A stretch of 37,718 bases of DNA from Opitutaceae bacterium (GTDB lineage Bacteria > Verrucomicrobiota > Verrucomicrobiia > Opitutales > Opitutaceae), in assembly GCA_003140665.1 (NCBI GenBank), contig PLKS01000146.1:274-37991 (forward strand), written 5' to 3'. Under the pieces are notes generated by a model. The model worked only from the letters and a program-made list of their open reading frames with translations, was not told the origin of the DNA and ran no database searches. Shown one piece after another: positions 1 through 28,918 of the stretch. The position numbers and the translations under genes are program-made. How positions within the stretch are numbered: the stretch's first letter is position 1; every line of letters begins with the position of its first letter.

Positions 1-32
1 GCGCCATCCTTAGCGCGGCTCCTAACAACGTT
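1..32 (+). repeat. Recurrent inter-gene element, copy A (GCGCCATCCTTAGCGCGGCTCCTAACAACGTT)
   Basis: 24/32 ungapped identity by eye to copy B at 1156-1187; may be cut by the window edge. Confidence 0.6.
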
Positions 33-35
33 GCC

Positions 36-395
36 GTGAAACCGCTTTTGCCCAAACCGCTCCTTCGCATTGAAGGTCTGACCGTACTTATGGGAGCATG
101 CCTCCTTTATCGGGCCTTGCACGGCTCGTGGCTCATGTTCGCTGTGCTGTTTCTGACTCCAGACCTATTCATGCTCGGTTATTTGTTTGGTGTCAGGGTA
201 GGGGCATGGGTCTATAATCTCGTTCACACATATACCGCACCGTTGGCGTTGGGTTTCGTTGCTTATTTTACCCCAATTCCCTCACTCTTAGCCATCTGCT
301 TAATTTGGACGGCCCACATCGGATTTGATAGGTTTCTCGGCTACGGCTTGAAGTATGAGACTGGGTTTAAGGATACCCACCTTGGGAAAGTGTAA
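36..395 (+). CDS. DUF4260-like small membrane protein
   Basis: ORF of 119 aa, GTG start, several hydrophobic segments, ends ..IGFDRFLGYGLKYETGFKDTHLGKV as in DUF4260 proteins. Confidence 0.8.
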   Translation: MKPLLPKPLLRIEGLTVLMGACLLYRALHGSWLMFAVLFLTPDLFMLGYLFGVRVGAWVYNLVHTYTAPLALGFVAYFTPIPSLLAICLIWTAHIGFDRFLGYGLKYETGFKDTHLGKV

Positions 396-459
396 ATCAA
401 CGCGATTCAATATGCCCAGCCACTCGCGGGATGCCGCCCTTGCTCCGGTCGCGCCCCCT

Positions 460-479
460 GCAGGGCAGTCTCGCCCTGC
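460..479. repeat. Perfect inverted repeat GCAGGGC-agtctc-GCCCTGC
   Basis: 7-bp stem, 6-nt loop between two CDS. Confidence 0.55.
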
Positions 480-484
480 CAGGA

Positions 485-506
485 CGCATCCTTGCAACGT
501 TCAGCG
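485..506 (+). repeat. Inter-gene element, right part only (CGCATCCTTGCAACGTTCAGCG)
   Basis: Similar to 2373-2394 (CGAATCATTGCGACGTTCAGCC) and 1171-1192. Confidence 0.5.
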
Positions 507-510
507 AGCC

Positions 511-1002
511 ATGCGGTGCACGCTCGGCATTCGTCCTGTTCTTGGGCTCTTTTTCGCGGCCTTCTTGCCTGGCGCAAGAGCGTCCGACCTGCCACCGGAG
601 CTCGGCGATCTGATCGACCCGGCGCCAAAGGTATACGTGTATCGCATGTCGGAAATTGGGCCTTCGGTGACGGATGCGATTAGCCTGAGCCTTCATTGGG
701 GAAGGCTCGAGATCGCCGACCAAGGCAAACCTTGGAACGCGACAGACGTTGTGGTGGATCGCTCACTGCCCTTCAGACGGTTGATATGGGCGGCTGCAGT
801 AAGGGGCTATGTTGTGATCCACTACGAGCTTGGGGGCAGGGGACATGGCTATCATATTCTTGTGATATCACCTCCAAATAGGAGCGGGAAGCGGTTCCTT
901 GTTTGGTCCGCAGTTCTCCCGCACAGGGCTAGCGACTTTGGGGATTTTATGCAGATGCTCGACGCCGGTTCGTTTAACGATGATCCGCGAAACGGACATT
1001 GA
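511..1002 (+). CDS. Hypothetical secreted protein
   Basis: Internal ATG of ORF 355-1002 gives signal peptide MRCTLGIRPVLGLFFAAFLPGARA. Confidence 0.6.
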   Translation: MRCTLGIRPVLGLFFAAFLPGARASDLPPELGDLIDPAPKVYVYRMSEIGPSVTDAISLSLHWGRLEIADQGKPWNATDVVVDRSLPFRRLIWAAAVRGYVVIHYELGGRGHGYHILVISPPNRSGKRFLVWSAVLPHRASDFGDFMQMLDAGSFNDDPRNGH

Positions 1003-1027
1003 TGCACAAGTCGCAGAATGCTGTCAC

Positions 1028-1043
1028 CGGATCCGACGTTTGC
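1028..1043 (+). repeat. Post-gene motif CGGATCCGACGTTTGC
   Basis: 15/16 identical to 1528-1543. Confidence 0.5.
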
Positions 1044-1054
1044 ATGGAACTCCA

Positions 1055-1070
1055 CCCCTGCGGGCAGGGG
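1055..1070. repeat. Perfect hairpin CCCCTG-cggg-CAGGGG
   Basis: Read directly. Confidence 0.5.
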
Positions 1071-1155
1071 TCGCGCGAACCTTGGCGAATAGTTTGAACG
1101 ATCGACAAGGGATCCAAGGCCTTCGCGAGGCACGTCTTGCGCCCCCGAAGGAAAT

Positions 1156-1187
1156 GCGCCATCCTTGGCCCGCATCATCAAGACGTT
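1156..1187 (+). repeat. Inter-gene element copy B (GCGCCATCCTTGGCCCGCATCATCAAGACGTT)
   Basis: See copy A. Confidence 0.6.
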
Positions 1188-1195
1188 AGGAATGT

Positions 1196-1212
1196 GTGAT
1201 CCTCCGGATCAC
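1196..1212. repeat. Perfect inverted repeat GTGATCC-tcc-GGATCAC
   Basis: Read directly; no T-run follows. Confidence 0.5.
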
Positions 1213-1247
1213 GTCGTGGGGTGGCGGCCCTCTTGTAACTTTTCGAA

Positions 1248-1493
1248 ATGGGCCGTGTTCTAGGGATGACCAACACCTGGTTCTGCATGAAAACCGTCAT
1301 CGTCCTGCTTCTTTGGGCCATATTATTGGCCGTCAGCTGGCCACTTGCGCTATTGCTCCTCGTTGCTTGGCCGATTTTATGGCTGCTTTCCATTCCATTT
1401 CGGGTGGTAGCCACGGTCATGGACGCGATGCTCGCGCTTCTGCGAGCTATCTTGTTTCTGCCAGCCCGCCTCCTGGGCTTCCGTCGCCCCTGA
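1248..1493 (+). CDS. Small hydrophobic membrane protein
   Basis: 81 aa, two hydrophobic segments; start uncertain (alternative ATG 1287). Confidence 0.5.
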   Translation: MGRVLGMTNTWFCMKTVIVLLLWAILLAVSWPLALLLLVAWPILWLLSIPFRVVATVMDAMLALLRAILFLPARLLGFRRP

Positions 1494-1527
1494 TTCTTCA
1501 AAGCGCCTACCCAATCTGACCACGCAA

Positions 1528-1543
1528 CGGATCCGACGCTTGC
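1528..1543 (+). repeat. Post-gene motif CGGATCCGACGCTTGC
   Basis: 15/16 identical to 1028-1043. Confidence 0.5.
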
Positions 1544-1573
1544 CTCAGGCACGCCACCCGCCGAGCGGCAGCC

Positions 1574-1604
1574 GCGCCATCTTGGCGCTGTTCATTGCGA
1601 CGCT
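1574..1604 (+). repeat. Inter-gene element copy C (GCGCCATCTTGGCGCTGTTCATTGCGACGCT)
   Basis: Aligns to copies A and B with one 1-nt gap; most columns match A or B; first part is a hairpin GCGCCA-tct-TGGCGC. Confidence 0.6.
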
Positions 1605-1683
1605 GGACTTCCTCACCGATTGTCCGGCCGTGTTCTGATGCTTGATTCCCAAAGATCGGTTCAAGGATGATCCATTCGGCCGG

Positions 1684-2124
1684 ATGAAGATGCGCGAAAG
1701 AGTCGAGCTCGGGCTGATCCCTGCCGCGGTGATTGCCATTGGACTGTCAGCACCCCTGCTGCCGGTGCAGCTCGCCACGGGCGAGCTGCTGGCGGTTGCC
1801 TGCCTTGCATGGCTTGTGCAGGGCGGCCTTCGCGATCTCTGGCTGATCTATTTGACGAAGGCGCGGCCCGAGGCGGCGCCCCGCCGGAAACTAGCCTGCA
1901 TGTGCCTGGAATCAAGCGCGGGGCTGACGGGCCTTCTGGTCGGCCTCGGGCTAACGTTATGTGGGATCGGCGGCCACGTCATGCTCGACCCGTGGCGCTG
2001 GATGCTGCTCGCCGCCGGAGTGCTGACGCTGGGGTTTCTGGCCAGGGACCTCGTGATCAGCTGGCGCCCACTTGGGTTGCGGCGCGTGCCCGACCACCAT
2101 ACCATCCTCTTCACGTGGTGGTGA
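1684..2124 (+). CDS. Hypothetical multi-pass membrane protein
   Basis: Hydrophobic helices; ORF opens with TTG at 1642, ATG at 1684. Confidence 0.6.
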   Translation: MKMRERVELGLIPAAVIAIGLSAPLLPVQLATGELLAVACLAWLVQGGLRDLWLIYLTKARPEAAPRRKLACMCLESSAGLTGLLVGLGLTLCGIGGHVMLDPWRWMLLAAGVLTLGFLARDLVISWRPLGLRRVPDHHTILFTWW

Positions 2125-2372
2125 CAGGAGGCCATCAGGTCCTGAGAAGCGCCGCATCTTGGGCCATTTCCGCAGCAGGCAACGGGCTGAGACAGCCGCC
2201 GGACCCGGCGCTTGAACTCCAGCGAGCAATCTCTCACGTTGGCCGGCCGGCAATGCCGATTGTGCGCCATCCTGAAGCATCCTCCAAGAACTCGCCGGAG
2301 GTTGGCCAAAGAGCGCGCCGAGACGGGCGGCGCATGCAGGCAGCAGGACAACCGGCCTACCCGTCCCGTTCG

Positions 2373-2394
2373 CGAATCATTGCGACGTTCAGCC
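2373..2394 (+). repeat. Inter-gene element, right part (CGAATCATTGCGACGTTCAGCC)
   Basis: Similar to 485-506. Confidence 0.5.
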
Positions 2395-2416
2395 ACTGAC
2401 CCGACCTAGCCTCACC

Positions 2417-2800
2417 ATGGAAGACAAACCGCACTACCCGTACGCAACCCACCTGAATGTGCATTATCGGCCATTGGAGCTCGTGGACACCCCGGCTCTG
2501 ATCTCCGCCTGTAAGGATCGTTGGTACAACCAGACGCTGTGCCAGGTAAACGATTCCGTGGTGAGACTGGGAGTCGTGCAGGGGGAGTATCACTGGCACA
2601 AGCATGAGAAGGACGACGAGTTCTTTTTCGTGATAGACGGCCGCTTCATGATAGATCTGGAAGACCGGGTGATCGAGCTGCTGCCACGACAGGGATTCGT
2701 CGTGCCGAAGGGGGTCGTGCACAGGACCCGCGCTCCTGAGAAGACCATCATCCTGATGGTGGAGACGGCTGGGATCGTTCCGACCGGGGACGCGAAGTAG
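2417..2800 (+). CDS. Cupin-domain protein
   Basis: HWHKHEKDDEFFFVIDG...LLPRQGFVVPKGVVHRTRAPE matches cupin motifs. Confidence 0.85.
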   Translation: MEDKPHYPYATHLNVHYRPLELVDTPALISACKDRWYNQTLCQVNDSVVRLGVVQGEYHWHKHEKDDEFFFVIDGRFMIDLEDRVIELLPRQGFVVPKGVVHRTRAPEKTIILMVETAGIVPTGDAK

Positions 2801-2949: not shown

Positions 2950-3405
2950 ATGAAGCCATTTCTTTTCTTGGCGGCGCTGACCGCGGTCCTCCCCGCCGGC
3001 CTTCGCGCGGACCCCGGCGTTTCAAGCTACAAGGCCGACCTTCTCTCGGCCGACAACGCATTTTGCGCACGGGCGGCCAAGGACGGAATACTGGAGGCTT
3101 TCATGGGCGTGGCGACCGCCGATACGAAACTTCTCTCGGAAAGCGGAAAGGGCTTCGACGCGGTAAAGTCGGGCTTCCAGGACATGCCCGCCACGGCGAC
3201 CCTCACTTGGAAGCCGTCGCAGGCCGAGGTGTCCCTGGGGGGCGATCTGGGCTACACCTGGGGTCGCTATGAATATCGGGACCGGACGGCCGACGGCAAG
3301 CCGGTCATTGAGACAGGCACCTACGTGACGATTTGGAGGCGTCAGTCGGACGGCTCGTGGAAGGTGGTTCTGGACGGAGGCACCGCCGATCCGAAGGCCA
3401 AATGA
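2950..3405 (+). CDS. Secreted SnoaL/DUF4440-like (NTF2 fold) protein
   Basis: Signal peptide, then ADNAFCARAAKDGILEAFMG...GYTWGRYEYRDR...WRRQSDGSWKVVLDGG. Confidence 0.75.
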   Translation: MKPFLFLAALTAVLPAGLRADPGVSSYKADLLSADNAFCARAAKDGILEAFMGVATADTKLLSESGKGFDAVKSGFQDMPATATLTWKPSQAEVSLGGDLGYTWGRYEYRDRTADGKPVIETGTYVTIWRRQSDGSWKVVLDGGTADPKAK

Positions 3406-3508
3406 CCCCGATGATCCGCGCCGGAACCGAGGCCGCAGATTCCGTGAATGGATGTCGCGACGATGAAGGCTGACCCGCAGCCTCCGCTCGAAACGCATCC
3501 TGCCGTGC

Positions 3509-3529
3509 CGCGGCCTGTCCGAGGCCGCG
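3509..3529. repeat. Perfect 8-bp hairpin CGCGGCCT-gtccg-AGGCCGCG
   Basis: Read directly; ends 14 nt before ATG 3544. Confidence 0.5.
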
Positions 3530-3543
3530 CAGGGTCGACCGCA

Positions 3544-3966
3544 ATGTTCGGCTGGGCCAGGATGAGATGCGGCCGTTTATCGGCGCTTATCTTCCTGGCC
3601 TCCGCAGCGCTTGGGGCCGGCTCGACGAGCCAGGTCACGGTGTGCGTCGCATGGACCAATTGCGAGGAGACGCAGTGCGCCGGGTGCCACGTCCAGATAA
3701 TCACGATGGACGCGGGTTCGTATTACATCGCGGTCCACGAGCGCGCGGGAGTCAAAATATACACGAAGGTTTCGGGCGACTGGGTCGGCAATGAGATCAA
3801 GGTATCGCTCACGGATGAATCCCGCCGGGGCGACGGCACGTTCGCGGACGGCAAGGGAACCTCCGCGATCGTGAAGACGGGGGAGTCCAGGGAGCTCCAG
3901 GCCGGCATCCTCAAGGCCCTCGTTTCCCTGCCGGGGGCCACGAGGGATTATCCCGACCCAAGGTGA
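3544..3966 (+). CDS. Hypothetical secreted protein
   Basis: Signal-like N-terminus, CxxxxCAGCH cysteine cluster; ORF opens at 3448 but ATG 3544 is more plausible. Confidence 0.55.
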   Translation: MFGWARMRCGRLSALIFLASAALGAGSTSQVTVCVAWTNCEETQCAGCHVQIITMDAGSYYIAVHERAGVKIYTKVSGDWVGNEIKVSLTDESRRGDGTFADGKGTSAIVKTGESRELQAGILKALVSLPGATRDYPDPR

Positions 3967-4110
3967 AAATGCCGTACGAAGCATCGGCAGATTGACCCGA
4001 GTCTCCTGGACCATGTCATGAAGCACCCTGAGTCGTTCGGGGCTGGCTCCCAATCCGATGCCTAGAAATTCCAATTCAATCCCACGATCCGCCGCTCGAC
4101 GGAAAAACGG

Positions 4111-4127
4111 ACAGGGGCGTCCCCTGT
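4111..4127. repeat. Perfect hairpin ACAGGGG-cgt-CCCCTGT
   Basis: Read directly, 23 nt before ATG 4150. Confidence 0.5.
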
Positions 4128-4149
4128 AGGCGCGAGGCGGGAGCACGAC

Positions 4150-4554
4150 ATGTACTATCGCGAGAGAATCCTCATTTGGATGCTCCTTGCCGTCGCCGCC
4201 GCCTATCTTGTCTGGTCGATGCTGCGGTCGATCAAATGGATGCGCCTCCAGGCGGAATCTGCGGAACGGCAGAAATGCCTGGTCGCGCGTTCGGCGGACG
4301 CGGAGCAGACCGTGATGGAATCGATCCGGCACCAGGAGGAGCAGATTCGGCTCATGAGGGTACTGGTCGCCGAGATATGCGCGCTGCGGGAGGAATCGGC
4401 GGAAAGGCAGAAGAGCCTGGTCACGCGGGCCGCGGATGCGGAGCAGGGTGTCCGGGAGTCGATAAGGCTTCAGGAGGAGCAACTTCGGCTCATGGGGGAG
4501 CTGGTCCGGCAGATCGAGGGGCTGCGCGGCGACCTGGAGCGAAGGAATGCATAG
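4150..4554 (+). CDS. Membrane-anchored coiled-coil protein with duplicated 46-aa unit
   Basis: N-terminal TM, then two ESAERQK..LV.R.ADAEQ..ESIR.QEEQ.RLM units. Confidence 0.65.
   Translation: MYYRERILIWMLLAVAAAYLVWSMLRSIKWMRLQAESAERQKCLVARSADAEQTVMESIRHQEEQIRLMRVLVAEICALREESAERQKSLVTRAADAEQGVRESIRLQEEQLRLMGELVRQIEGLRGDLERRNA
4255..4530 (+). repeat. Two tandem 138-bp in-frame repeat units
   Basis: Units 4255-4392 and 4393-4530 are collinear without gaps. Confidence 0.8.
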
Positions 4555-4810
4555 CCAGGCGCCGGATTCGGGCCGGGTCGCCCATTCCCCGGCCAACCGG
4601 TATCGGCCTCCAGGCCGGCCGCAGCCATTCCCGATCAGCCGGAAATCCGGGCGAAAGCATATGCAACAGCCGGATCCCCGTGACGTTATGGCATTGACCA
4701 GCGGGGGATCCTGCACGATCACAGGAGCCTGATCCTTGTGCCTGTCATGGCCCGCGCGGGTCGCATGTCGTGAAGGGGTTCGGCGCGGTTCATTTCAAGT
4801 TTGGGAAACG

Positions 4811-5344
4811 ATGAGAAAATGCTGCCTAATTCCGATTTGCTGCCTCCTTCTTTCAGGCTGCGGGAGGCACCTGGACCTGCCTGCCCAGGAGCCCGCGGAC
4901 CTCGTGAGGGTGACCACGCTCGCCGGGCTCCCGACCCTTCAGATCAGGGAGATCCGGGAGAAGGAGCGAGTTGCGGCCCTCGTTGCATTTGTGAATTCGC
5001 TCCCCGCCAACTGGAGCGTTCCCTGGTACGGCCCGCAGATCGGATGGGTCTACCTCGAGTTCTACAGCAATCGGAGAAGCATCGGGACGTTCTGCGTGGG
5101 CCCGGGCTTCTTCGGCAGGGTCTCGGGCAAGTCCTACTCCGAGGATGCGTCGAGGGGCAGGATAGATGAGCTTGGAAAGATCATGGACGTGGACCTCTGG
5201 ACCTACCTGAGCACAAACGAGCTCGGGCATGCCCCTGAGCCGGGGGCCGTGCCTGCCATGCCGGTCGCGCGCATCACCCCGACCCCCCGCGTCACGCCAA
5301 CGGCCGTTCCGCCGACAGCGGTTCCGCCGACCCGCCATCCTTAG
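4811..5344 (+). CDS. Hypothetical lipoprotein with Pro/Thr-rich C-terminus
   Basis: MRKCCLIPICCLLLSGCG lipobox; tail TPTPRVTPTAVPPTAVPPTRHP. Confidence 0.65.
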   Translation: MRKCCLIPICCLLLSGCGRHLDLPAQEPADLVRVTTLAGLPTLQIREIREKERVAALVAFVNSLPANWSVPWYGPQIGWVYLEFYSNRRSIGTFCVGPGFFGRVSGKSYSEDASRGRIDELGKIMDVDLWTYLSTNELGHAPEPGAVPAMPVARITPTPRVTPTAVPPTAVPPTRHP

Positions 5345-5362
5345 GGGGATTCCCCCCCAAGG
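5339..5362. repeat. G/C hairpin CCTTaGGGGG...CCCCCAAGG
   Basis: Spans stop codon of the preceding CDS. Confidence 0.45.
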
Positions 5363-5388
5363 CCGGGGCAACGGGCGGCCACCCAACT

Positions 5389-5694
5389 ATGAAAAAGCAA
5401 ATATCGCGCATATCGGTGCTGCAATCGTGCAAGATCATGACGGCCCTCTACGTCCTGTTCGGATTTGTCTACACGCTGATCGGCATTCCCCTGGTCATCT
5501 TCGGGAACGTGCAGTTCAAGGTGATGGGGGTCGTGTATTGCTTGATGCCCGTCATTTTGGGTGTCTTCGGGTTCCTGTTTTTCGCAGTGTTTGCGGCGGT
5601 CTACAATCTCCTGGCCAAGCGGCTGGGAGGAGTCGAATTCGAGGTCCTCACCGTCGGGGAGGCTCCTCCCCAGATCTCCGCCTCCGCCGCCTGA
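5389..5694 (+). CDS. DUF3566-like small membrane protein
   Basis: Two TM segments, ends YNLLAKRLGGVEFEVLT. Confidence 0.6.
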   Translation: MKKQISRISVLQSCKIMTALYVLFGFVYTLIGIPLVIFGNVQFKVMGVVYCLMPVILGVFGFLFFAVFAAVYNLLAKRLGGVEFEVLTVGEAPPQISASAA

Positions 5695-5701
5695 TCCCGC
5701 G

Positions 5702-6175
5702 ATGCCTCCCGCGGGGAAAAGGGCGCGCGATGACCGGAAGGGAAGCCCTCCGGCTTCCAGCCGGCCGGCCGCCGGATACTCCGGGACGCCTCTCTGGAAG
5801 AAGCTTGGCTACGCCCCGGGAACCCGCGCCCTGGCCGTGGACGCGCCGGGCGGCTACGCTCGGCTCCTGTCGCTTCCCCCGGAGGTGAAGGTCTCATGGC
5901 TCGGACGCCCCGAGCGCGGAATGAGATTTGTGCACGTGTTCGCGAAGGAATCGACATCGCTTCAAGGCGAGCTCGCCAGGTTGCGCCGGGAAATCGTCCC
6001 GGACGGTGTCGTCTGGGTGTCGTGGCCGAAAAGGGCCTCCGGTGTTCCCACCGACATAACCGAGGATACGATCCGGGAAATCGCGATTCCCCTCGGATTC
6101 GTGGACATCAAGGTCTGCGCGGTCGACAAGACGTGGTCCGGATTGAAGCTGATGATCCGGAGGACCGAGAGATGA
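5702..6175 (+). CDS. DUF3052 family protein
   Basis: PLWKKLGYAPGTRALAVDAP...VWVSWPKRASGVPTDITEDTIREIAIPLGFVDIKVCAVDKTWSGLKLMIRR. Confidence 0.85.
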   Translation: MPPAGKRARDDRKGSPPASSRPAAGYSGTPLWKKLGYAPGTRALAVDAPGGYARLLSLPPEVKVSWLGRPERGMRFVHVFAKESTSLQGELARLRREIVPDGVVWVSWPKRASGVPTDITEDTIREIAIPLGFVDIKVCAVDKTWSGLKLMIRRTER

Positions 6176-6204: not shown

Positions 6205-7257
6205 CTAGGCGTTCCTGGCTGAAAGGATCTGCGTCATCCACCGGCGGTGGGGGCCGGACAGGGCGATGGAATCGAGGTCCCCGAGGCGGACCCAGACCAG
6301 CCCGGGCCCGAGCCTTCCCCCCGGATGCCGCGCCGAATGGATCGACTCGACGATCCGAAAGCGGGTGATCCCGCGGCTCCTTCGGGCGACAAGCGGCCCC
6401 GTGGAAGCGCTCGCCGGGTCGAGTCCCGCCTGCTGCGCCGTGGGAAGCTCGTGGAGATCCGCGAGGCGCCGCGCGCCGGGCGCGTTGCGATGGAGGAGCA
6501 CCGCTCCCCGGCGCTCGCACCACACCCGGACGACGGATCGGCGCTCGATGCGCCTCGGCTCGAGCCGGGGATAGGCCTCGGGGTCGCCGGCCTTCGCGGC
6601 GGCGCAGAATCCGCGCACCGGGCAGATGAGGCAGGACGGGCGCCGGCGCAGGCACACGGTGGCCCCGAGCTCCATCATCGCCTGGTTGTGGTCCCCGGGG
6701 GCCCCGGGATTGACGAGCTCCTGGGCGAGAGGCGAGAACGCCCGCGACGCCGAGGCGCTATCCCTGTAGGCGGTTCCGTCGCGGGTCAGCCGGGCCAGGA
6801 TGCGCACCACGTTGCCGTCCACGCACGCGCTGGCCTCGCCGAAGGCGATGCTCGCGATGGCGGCCGCGGTGTAGGGCCCGACGCCGGGAAGCTCCCGCCA
6901 GCCGCCCGAGGAGCGGGGCAGCTCCGGCGCCGGCGCGACGGACTTGGCCAGGCGATGCAGGTTGCGGGCGCGCGAGTAGTAGCCGAGGCCCTCCCAGAGC
7001 TTCAGCACCGTCGCCTCGGGAGCGGCGGCGAGCGCCGCAAAGTCGGGCAATGCGGACATCCAGCGCCCGAAGTAGGTAAGGACCGTCGCCACCCGCGTCT
7101 GCTGGAGCATGAACTCGCTCACGACCGTCCCGTAGGCGGACGTCGACTCACGCCAGGGCAGCGGCCTGCGCGCCGCGCGGTACCAGGCCAGCAGGGCATC
7201 CCTGAATTCCGCGCGCCCCGCCACCAGCCTGTCCCGGGCGGAAGTTTTGCGTGTCAT
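6205..7257 (-). CDS. mutY: A/G-specific adenine glycosylase MutY
   Basis: LPWR..SAYGTVVSEFMLQQTRV, LPGVGPYTAAAIASIAF, HNQAMMELGATVC, Cys cluster CLRRRPSCLICPVRGFC. Confidence 0.93.
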   Translation of the reverse strand: MTRKTSARDRLVAGRAEFRDALLAWYRAARRPLPWRESTSAYGTVVSEFMLQQTRVATVLTYFGRWMSALPDFAALAAAPEATVLKLWEGLGYYSRARNLHRLAKSVAPAPELPRSSGGWRELPGVGPYTAAAIASIAFGEASACVDGNVVRILARLTRDGTAYRDSASASRAFSPLAQELVNPGAPGDHNQAMMELGATVCLRRRPSCLICPVRGFCAAAKAGDPEAYPRLEPRRIERRSVVRVWCERRGAVLLHRNAPGARRLADLHELPTAQQAGLDPASASTGPLVARRSRGITRFRIVESIHSARHPGGRLGPGLVWVRLGDLDSIALSGPHRRWMTQILSARNA

Positions 7258-7287: not shown

Positions 7288-8295
7288 ATGCCCAAGCGCG
7301 GCCAGGACGACGAGGAAAAACCCAAGAAGCTCAGCGCCTATTCGCTCAAGCTCGACGACTCCCAGATGGAGCGACTGCGCTCCCTGCTGAGCGGGCGCGG
7401 CTGGGAGGCCTTCGACGTCGCCTATGCGCGCTACGCGTTCCGGGGGCGCGACTGCAACGTCACCGCCTACGAGAGCGGGAAGCTGGTCGTCGCGGGAAAG
7501 GGCACGGAGGAATTCGTGACGATGACGCTCGAGCCGGAGGTGACGCGGGCGCCGAAGCTCGGCTACGACGGCGTCCTGCATCCCGAGTGGTTCGAGCCCC
7601 ACGCGGGACTAGACGAGAGCGGCAAGGGAGACCTCTTCGGGCCCGTGGTGGCGGCGACCGTCATCGCGGACCGCCCGGCGATAGAGGCGTGGATCAAGGC
7701 GGGCGTGAAGGACTCGAAGAAGATCGCGGAGGCCCAAATCATCAAGCTGGACCGGCTGATCCGGGGGACCGCGGGCACGGCGGTCGCCACCTGCCTGTGC
7801 GGGATGCCCAAGTACAACCTCCTCATGTCCCGTCCGGGCGCCAATCTGAACCGGCTGCTCGCCTGGCAGCACGCGACGGCGCTTTCCCAGGCGCTCTCGA
7901 GGAAGAGGGTGCCGTGGGGCCTCCTCGACCAGTTCAGCAAGCAGCCGCTCGCCCAGCGGGAGCTCGCGAGGATGGGGATCAAGGATTTCGACCTGAGGAT
8001 GCGCACGAAGGCGGAGGAGGACCCGGTCGTCGCGGCCGCCTCCGTCGTCGCGCGGGCCGAGTACGTGCGCCAGATGCACGCGCTCTCGAAGCGTTTCGGG
8101 GGGCCGCTGCAAAAGGGCGCGGGGCCCCTCGTCAAGGAGCAGGCGGCGCAGATCATCGAGCGCTTCGGGGCGCGCTCGCTCGGGGATTTCGCAAAGCTTC
8201 ATTTCCGGACGGCCTACGAGGTCGTGCTTGCCGCGGGCAAGCTGGACGAGCTTCCGCTTCCCGAGCCCAAGGCGCGGGTGGAGTGGGGCGGGTGA
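7288..8295 (+). CDS. rnhC: Ribonuclease HIII
   Basis: N-terminal DUF3378-like region, then LDESGKGDLFGPVVAATV, VKDSKK, EDPVVAAASVVARAEYV. Confidence 0.92.
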   Translation: MPKRGQDDEEKPKKLSAYSLKLDDSQMERLRSLLSGRGWEAFDVAYARYAFRGRDCNVTAYESGKLVVAGKGTEEFVTMTLEPEVTRAPKLGYDGVLHPEWFEPHAGLDESGKGDLFGPVVAATVIADRPAIEAWIKAGVKDSKKIAEAQIIKLDRLIRGTAGTAVATCLCGMPKYNLLMSRPGANLNRLLAWQHATALSQALSRKRVPWGLLDQFSKQPLAQRELARMGIKDFDLRMRTKAEEDPVVAAASVVARAEYVRQMHALSKRFGGPLQKGAGPLVKEQAAQIIERFGARSLGDFAKLHFRTAYEVVLAAGKLDELPLPEPKARVEWGG

Positions 8296-8315
8296 GGGGG
8301 GCCCGCGATCGCCCG

Positions 8316-9077
8316 ATGCCGAAGCGCCGACAGCTCCGCAGCTTCGACCTGAAGAAGATCGAGGGATTCGAGGGCCTGATCGGCGTGGACGAGGTTGGCC
8401 GGGGCGCGCTGGCGGGCCCCGTCGTCGCCGGCGCCGTCCTCGTGACCCGGGAGTTCCTGGGGAGCCGGTGGGCCGCGTACAAGGCCGGCCGCGTGAACGA
8501 CTCGAAGCTGCTGACGGCCGCCGACCGCGAGTCCCTCTGGGGCGAGTTCGAGTCGCTCGCGGCCCTGGGCCAGATCCACGCGCACTTCGGGTCCGCGAGC
8601 GTGGAGGAGATCGAGCAGCACAACATCCTCGGAGCGACCAAGCTCGCGATGCGGCGGGCGATGGAGGGCATCTATCCCGCCGCGGCGTTCAGGCGCAGCG
8701 AGGAGCCGGACCTCTTCTCCTCGGTCGAGGAGCGTGAGGCATTCGTCCCGGCGGTCTCGTGCCGAGTGATCGTGGACGGCCTGCCCCTGAGGGGATTCCC
8801 ATACCCCCACACGGCCGTGGTGCGGGGCGACGGCAGGTCGCTCTGCATCGCGATGGCCTCGATCATCGCCAAGGTGGCGAGGGACCGGATGATGGCCGAG
8901 CTGGACGCGAGGCATCCCGGCTACGGGTTCGGCACCCACAAGGGCTATGGCACCAGCGACCACCGGGACGCGGTCATCCGGCTGGGGCGCAGCCCCATCC
9001 ACAGGGAGATGTTCCTGCGCAAGCTGCTGGCGCACCGCGCGGACCCGGACCAGATGGATTTCCTTCCCGGCCGTTGA
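8316..9077 (+). CDS. rnhB: Ribonuclease HII
   Basis: GVDEVGRGALAGPVVAGAVL, VNDSKLL, IAMASIIAKVARDRMM, HPGYGFGTHKGYGTSDH. Confidence 0.95.
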   Translation: MPKRRQLRSFDLKKIEGFEGLIGVDEVGRGALAGPVVAGAVLVTREFLGSRWAAYKAGRVNDSKLLTAADRESLWGEFESLAALGQIHAHFGSASVEEIEQHNILGATKLAMRRAMEGIYPAAAFRRSEEPDLFSSVEEREAFVPAVSCRVIVDGLPLRGFPYPHTAVVRGDGRSLCIAMASIIAKVARDRMMAELDARHPGYGFGTHKGYGTSDHRDAVIRLGRSPIHREMFLRKLLAHRADPDQMDFLPGR

Positions 9078-27952: not shown

Positions 27953-28918
27953 ATGCGCACGCTCACCGGAATCACGCCCTCGGGCGCCGTGCACATTGGC
28001 AACTATTTCGGCGCGATGAGGCCGGCCATAGAGGCCCAGGCGGCGGGCGACTGCTTCTACTTCATCGCGGACTACCACTCGATGACCTCCGTCACCGATC
28101 CCGGGGAGCGCAGGGCCAACACCCGGGGCATCGCGGTCGACTGGCTCGCCTGCGGGCTCGACCCCATGGCGAGCGTGTTCTGGCGCCAGAGCGACGTGCC
28201 CGAGGTTTGCGAGCTGACCTGGCTCATCGGAAGCCTGACCCCGATGGGGCTCCTGGAGCGCGCGCACAGCTACAAGGACAAGACGGCGAAGGGACTGACG
28301 CCCAACTTCGGGCTTTTCGCGTACCCGGTGCTGATGGCCGCCGACATCCTGCTCTATGACACGAATGCCGTCCCCGTGGGGCAGGACCAGAGGCAGCACC
28401 TGGAGATGACCCGGGACATCGCGATCAAGTTCAACCAGACTTACGGCGCCACCTTTGTCGTGCCGGACGCCGTCATACGCGGCGATACCGGGAACGTCCC
28501 CGGCCTTGACGGCCAGAAGATGAGCAAGAGCTACGGGAACACGCTCGAGATTTTCGGCGACGAGAAGGCGCTTCGCAAGAAGGTCATGTCGATCGTCATG
28601 GACAGCAGGACGCCGGCGGAGCCGAAGCCCGACGCCGACCGCAACCTCTGCATCCAGCTCATGAAGCTCCTTGCGCCGCCCGCCGTCGCGGCGGACTACG
28701 AAGCGAGGCTCCGCGCCGGGGGCCTGGGCTACGGCGACCTGAAGAAGGCGCTTTTCGAGCACTTCTGGACGTTCTTCGCCCCGGCGCGCGCCCGCCGCGA
28801 CGAGCTCCTTGCGGATCCCGGCTATGTCGACCGGGTGCTGGCGGAGGGAGCCGCCCGCGCCCGCGCCTTGGCCTCGATCGTGATCCAGCGAGCCCGCAGG
28901 GCCTGTGGCCTCGAATAG
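27953..28918 (+). CDS. trpS: Tryptophan-tRNA ligase
   Basis: TGITPSGAVHIGNYFGA (HIGH-type), KMSKSYGNTL (KMSKS). Confidence 0.96.
   Translation: MRTLTGITPSGAVHIGNYFGAMRPAIEAQAAGDCFYFIADYHSMTSVTDPGERRANTRGIAVDWLACGLDPMASVFWRQSDVPEVCELTWLIGSLTPMGLLERAHSYKDKTAKGLTPNFGLFAYPVLMAADILLYDTNAVPVGQDQRQHLEMTRDIAIKFNQTYGATFVVPDAVIRGDTGNVPGLDGQKMSKSYGNTLEIFGDEKALRKKVMSIVMDSRTPAEPKPDADRNLCIQLMKLLAPPAVAADYEARLRAGGLGYGDLKKALFEHFWTFFAPARARRDELLADPGYVDRVLAEGAARARALASIVIQRARRACGLE

Follow-up and report, generated by a model that had tools for sequence, protein, structure and literature searches.

An array of integron attC sites beside mutY in an uncultured Opitutaceae genome, very probably the decaying distal end of a sedentary chromosomal integron

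Organisation of the locus

The window, by which is meant the whole stretch of 37,718 nucleotides that was analysed, corresponds to C144:274-37991 of G000, a draft genome of 278 contigs (87% complete, 2.9% contamination) belonging to a genus of uncultured Opitutaceae (Verrucomicrobiota). With 12 congeners it makes up the comparison set of 13 genomes. The window begins directly 3' of an NN assembly gap (C144:272-273), and in the 273 bases upstream of it an ORF that is GNAT-like by eye ends and is followed by GCCTAACCAATCACCGCATCCGACGCTTGCGTCGGGCACGGCTCNN, which is the canonical R'' box and left half of the first copy of an inter-gene element. Further copies separate a run of small ORFs that, as had been described earlier, all lie on the + strand, and the run is followed by mutY on the opposite strand (Table 1). 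The copies are labelled as attC sites for reasons given below.

Table 1. Features at the left end of the window. Positions are those of the window unless a contig is named; R1 and R3 are the covariance models described in the text.
Feature	Position	Strand	Evidence
attC site 1	C144:227-309 (window -47 to 36)	+	45 bits, whole-genome E=2e-10 (R1); R'' box GCCTAAC upstream of window
Cassette gene, DUF4260 membrane protein	36-395	+	Pfam PF14079, E=1.5e-41
attC site 2, decayed	413-506	+	27.4 bits (R1), whole-genome E=1.8e-4; 29.5 bits (R3)
Cassette gene, predicted secreted protein	511-1002	+	ORF; no Pfam match
attC site 3a, strongly decayed	1022-1107	+	20 bits (R1); E=0.0016 over 104 kb, 0.06 whole genome
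attC site 3b	1092-1192	+	26 bits (R1), whole-genome E=5.5e-4; 33.3 bits (R3)
Cassette gene, small membrane protein (81 aa)	1248-1493	+	ORF; 70% identical gene in G003
attC site 4, best preserved of window	1513-1609	+	51.9 bits (R1), whole-genome E=1e-12; 62.1 bits (R3)
Probable cassette gene, membrane protein	1684-2124	+	ORF; sub-threshold Pfam match only
Half-site, R'-side end of attC; left half unrecognisable	2374-2393	+	20-mer, 0 expected at 3 mismatches
Probable cassette gene, cupin protein	2417-2800	+	Cupin_2, E=5.7e-11
Small ORFs: DUF4440 protein, secreted, coiled-coil, lipoprotein, membrane	2950-5694	+	ORFs and Pfam
Candidate fossil attC	4708-4807	+	16 bits (R1); 14.8 bits (R3), E=0.04 over window, not significant alone
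DUF3052-like gene	5702-6175	+	Sub-threshold Pfam DUF3052; 56% identity over 165 aa in G005
mutY, right-hand flanking gene of the integron insertion	6205-7257	-	Found once in each of 13 genomes

The attC sites are secure as far as position 1609 and weak beyond it. Sites 3a and 3b overlap, with no ORF between them, and the half-site ahead of the cupin gene gives no covariance-model match over the whole site. The small ORFs that follow the cupin gene are possibly older cassettes; no clear attC was found among them save the weak candidate, which stops 4 nt short of the lipoprotein ORF at 4811. The DUF3052-like gene is also present near mutY in G003 and G005 and is therefore probably part of the flank and not a cassette. 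Together with the last secure site, the half-site and the fossil candidate, this places the right boundary of the array between about 2400 and 5700.

The inter-gene element

The earlier note on this DNA had reported a recurrent element of about 32 nt ahead of successive genes, and the repeats are present at the positions given. The copies at 1-32 and 1156-1187 are identical at 24 of 32 positions (75%) without gaps, and right-half versions precede two further genes, the copies at 485-505 and 2373-2393 being 86% identical. The 20-mer of 2374-2393 recurs in the 37.7 kb only at 486-505 when up to 3 mismatches are allowed (0 expected from shuffles). The right-end consensus GGATCATTNCAACGTT, again with 3 mismatches allowed, is matched only at 17, 486, 2374 and 4787, where 0.37 matches are expected; all four are on the + strand, each is shortly 5' of an ORF, and the last is the R' end of the fossil candidate. 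The core GCGCCATCNTTRGC taken alone showed no convincing excess in the window (8 matches against 3.6 expected). The repeat unit is, however, longer than had been described. The full unit measures about 83-101 bp, of which the 32 nt form only the right third, and the first copy begins upstream of the window, its left end occupying C144:227-273, across the assembly gap.

Read as a whole, attC site 1 runs GCCTAAC...ACAACGTTGCC. Its R'' box agrees with the RYYYAAC that is paired with GTTRRRY (R') at the ends of attC sites, a site on contig C5 of the same genome reads GTCTAAC...GTTATGC, and the sites of the congeners are at or near the consensus, whereas the later sites of the window have decayed. 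The ends had been thought to fit the consensus so poorly that an atypical attC family, or a different repeat, was proposed. That impression arose from the truncation of the first site, whose left half falls outside the window, and from the decay of the other copies; intact copies carry standard ends (GCCTAAC or GTCTAAC ... GTTAGAC or GTTAGGC) and also form an imperfect hairpin of the standard type, with an extrahelical base. What separates the genes is an ordinary, canonical integron attC, a single-strand hairpin of about 98 bp with R'' and R' ends. The idea of an integron-like array in which one-gene units are divided by a shared site thus stands, and the word 'atypical' falls away.

attC models and fold

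Full-length IntI proteins of 340-352 aa are encoded by six congeners, and ten intact attC sites from four of these were used to build a covariance model (R1) that contains no G000 sequence. The ten sites occupy 98 alignment columns with a mean identity of 88%, and their consensus forms one imperfect hairpin of 27 pairs with one unpaired base inside the L helix. Pairing is possible in 97.4% of cells, compared with 89.3% after shuffling and 29-38% after sliding of the partner, and the fold shows covariation, with 7 pairs changed on both sides (22 such cells). Individual attC sites of the window fold no better than shuffles (z -1.3 to +1.0). The evidence for structure therefore rests on the intact sites of the congeners.

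Searching the genome and its relatives with a covariance model had been suggested as a check, and R1 finds four sites at the array (1, 2, 3b and 4 of Table 1) with whole-genome E values from 5.5e-4 to 1e-12. On C5 it gives 84.5 bits to C5:6359-6456 and 52.8 bits to C5:5784-5882. Its output includes opposite-strand echoes of the palindromic sites, and these were not counted as sites. A wider model (R3) comprises 38 sites fitted with R1, the window still being excluded. It replaced a model (R2) for which 21 sites, some of them divergent, had been aligned with MAFFT; R2 was dropped as it kept only 7 pairs and had lost most of the structure. By score alone the candidate at 4708-4807 is not separable from chance, and R3 gives a higher score to 28615-28710, outside the array. 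The latter is an isolated match (17.9 bits, E=0.004 over the window) that R1 does not report, and is either chance or a solo degenerate attC.

A cassette is captured as a circle, and the R'' near its end should in consequence complement the R' at its start. In the better preserved arrays (C5, C211, G005, G008 and G009, taken together) 17 of 25 cassettes carry an R'' exactly complementary to their own R', as against 50 of 251 other pairings. In the window array no such match can still be seen, in line with decay.

Integrase and attC sites elsewhere in the genome

Three tyrosine recombinases were found in G000, two of them XerC/XerD-like and the third an integron integrase (NCBIfam TIGR02249, E=1.3e-40). 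The earlier note had proposed to look for an IntI near the window. None is present on the window's contig, which breaks inside the array, but the integron integrase is encoded on contig C5 of the same genome as a C-terminal fragment of 195 residues that is without roughly the first 127 model positions. The order on C5 is parE-parC (by eye), an ISL3-like transposase, the IntI fragment (- strand), attC, cassette, attC, cassette, and an IS110-like transposase at the contig end. The first cassette holds two genes, a HicA toxin and a preceding gene that is HicB-like by eye, and the second a Phd/YefM-YoeB toxin-antitoxin. Within this stretch (C5:5235-7018) the IntI fragment runs straight into the R'' side of an attC. 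The position of the fragment in a tree of the IntI proteins of the genus is not firm (support 82/64). DMNR01000155.1, from a MAG labelled Actinomycetota (UBA10799), carries an IntI that has 72% identity to the fragment and is nested among the Opitutaceae IntIs; the MAG is probably mislabelled or mis-binned, or else horizontal transfer has taken place.

Besides C144, at least five contigs of G000 carry attC sites recognised by R1 (C5, C211, C4, C139, C38, C240 and possibly C17), and those on C38, C240 and C17 lie well inside their contigs. In the window, C5 and C211 the units have the same layout, with one or two genes in one orientation and compact spacing to the attC sites. That parC (C5) and glyS (C211) might flank a second integron at a shared site was considered and found unsupported, as glyS does not lie within 1.5 kb of parC in the relatives. 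A second DUF4260 gene, 64% identical to the cassette gene of the window, was observed at G000:C229:9349-9699.

The epim-mutY locus in congeners

Each of the 13 genomes searched has a single mutY. In four congeners that have no array there it closely adjoins the gene for a xylose-isomerase-like TIM-barrel protein (PF01261), here called epim. From the epim end to the mutY 3' end the distance is 12 bp in G007, about 30 bp in both G011 and G012, and about 170 bp in G010. In G003, G005 and G006 a full-length intI follows directly after epim, tail to tail. In G008 a single contig carries 16 attC sites, then a DUF4260 gene, then mutY; the array has the same orientation as that of the window and its attC sites show a trend from intact to decayed towards mutY. 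This DUF4260 gene, which lies after an attC, is 82% identical to that of the window. At this level of similarity a DUF4260 gene is absent from the other 11 of the 12 congeners searched. In G003 a gene 70% identical to that of the 81-aa membrane protein in the window lies about 1.1 kb from mutY, and three attC sites likewise precede mutY. For the cupin gene, 3 of the 12 congeners have homologues, all of them distant (27-39% identity) and on other contigs. Cassette content therefore varies among the congeners while the flanking genes stay, and the conserved gene order across relatives that the earlier note had raised as a possibility is not seen at this locus. The attC family of the genus was found in 9 of the 13 genomes, which at E<=0.001 have between 3 and 43 matches each (a few opposite-strand echoes included), and some congeners yielded no attC copy at all in the R1 search. 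The 43 matches are in G009, which has long further arrays on G009:C119 and G009:C55 and is a rich source of intact cassettes.

In G000 the two sides of the locus are found on different contigs. C139 has the order dnaE - rpsU (by eye) - epim - 37 bp - attC, so that epim is followed directly by attC with no intI beside it, and C144 has the order array - mutY. Judging from gene order in the relatives, the simplest reading is that C139 and C144, which no single contig spans, would be the two flanks of the same integron insertion.

Origin of the array

The window from position 1 to about 2400, and perhaps to about 4800 or further, is very probably the distal, oldest and decaying end of a sedentary chromosomal integron whose intI has probably been lost. 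IntI inserts cassettes at attI next to intI, and the cassettes farthest from intI are therefore the oldest. Here, IntI would have taken up circular cassettes at an attI beside intI and epim, and newer cassettes would have pushed older ones towards mutY, leaving at the mutY end the oldest cassettes with decayed sites. The trend from intact to decayed sites in G008 agrees with this order of age. In G000 intI would then have been lost from its place beside epim, after which the attC sites would no longer be selected and would decay. The sequence suggests a loss of integrase activity. The only IntI found in G000 is the C-terminal fragment beside the ISL3-like transposase, and unless the unassembled part of this 87%-complete draft holds an intact intI, the array is therefore probably frozen.

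The gene-cassette layout that had been recognised at the outset is backed by the independent attC model, by IntI in the genome and in six congeners, and by the empty site in other congeners, and it is against these findings that other origins have to be set. A dispersed intergenic repeat, REP-like or of another sort, that has no recombination function would also be repeated between genes, form hairpins and have copies at several places in the genome. The scattering that had been linked to such a repeat does occur, in so far as attC clusters lie at several genomic places, but by sequence, structure and neighbourhood these are attC and not REP elements: the copies are clustered and follow one another head to tail in a single orientation, with one for each small gene, they adjoin intI in congeners, complementarity of R'' and R' within a cassette is seen in the better preserved arrays, cassette content varies between conserved flanks, and some congeners hold no copies. 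This explanation is scarcely credible. It is also very unlikely that the locus is an ordinary operon-like run of lineage-specific genes whose repeats are due to chance or recent duplication. For positions 1-2400 this is contradicted by a model built from other species that finds sites at E values down to 1e-12. Past 2400 there is no convincing attC, and the ORFs of 2950-6175 could accordingly be ordinary genes; the DUF3052 gene near mutY is indeed common to the window, G003 and G005.

The remaining explanation retains the cassettes but not the local integron. The cluster would be a CALIN, a cluster of attC sites lacking an integron integrase (PMC8618304), that never had an integrase of its own and was formed by off-target insertion, IntI acting in trans having put cassettes here and elsewhere. 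The presence of attC on at least six contigs, in some cases well inside the contig, favours such a process, as does the lack of an intI adjoining the window array, and off-target insertion may well be right for the other attC clusters of G000. At this locus, however, three congeners carry intI exactly in the corresponding place, directly after epim, and G008 has a long array in the same orientation with the same mutY flank, which makes loss of intI the simpler explanation; an off-target origin of the window cluster is unlikely.

A broader proposal, put forward tentatively and with some doubt, is that G000 may now be without any single integron. Its cassette pool would be spread over clusters beside core genes (parC, glyS, epim/dnaE, mutY and others), either through off-target insertion driven by IntI or through break-up of the original platform by transposons, of which the intI fragment next to parC beside the ISL3-like element might be a trace. 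These clusters would be integrase-free, and the IntI of a congener could perhaps still mobilise them.

Relation to known integrons

The kind of system and its mechanism are already well known. In Xanthomonas, sedentary chromosomal integrons have intI next to ilvD, often inactivated by deletion or truncation, while the arrays persist; extra attC clusters occur elsewhere in the genome, and in some strains a truncated intI lies beside transposases (PMC12444791). G000 resembles them in the fixed place beside a housekeeping gene, the lost or truncated intI, the retained array, the extra attC clusters and the truncated intI beside a transposase. It differs in belonging to the Verrucomicrobiota, in its IntI and attC sequences and in the place of insertion, between epim and mutY. 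Loss of intI has been proposed as one origin of CALINs (PMC8618304). The window array is like a CALIN in having at least four attC sites and no intI on its contig (which ends inside the array), and is unlike one in that congeners have intI at the same locus. Integrons have already been reported in the Verrucomicrobiota (PMC8618304), the phylum to which G000 belongs. No description of an Opitutaceae integron at the epim-mutY locus, nor any integron study of this group, was found in the literature searched, outside which most subscription papers fall. What is new for the Opitutaceae is a defined integron locus and an attC family that can be used as a covariance model. The genus moreover offers a natural series at one locus, from the empty site (G007, G010, G011 and G012) through an intact intI beside epim (G003, G005 and G006) and a long array before mutY (G008) to an array without intI at that place (G000), and what becomes of a chromosomal integron once its integrase is gone can thus be read off directly.

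Other features of the window

An Rfam search of the window returned two tRNAs and nothing else. A 138-nt tandem duplication (4246-4521, 73% identical) lies within the coiled-coil ORF at 4150-4554. Beside mutY, at 7288-9077, are two adjoining genes resembling rnhC (RNase HIII) and rnhB (RNase HII), and their order is kept in several congeners.
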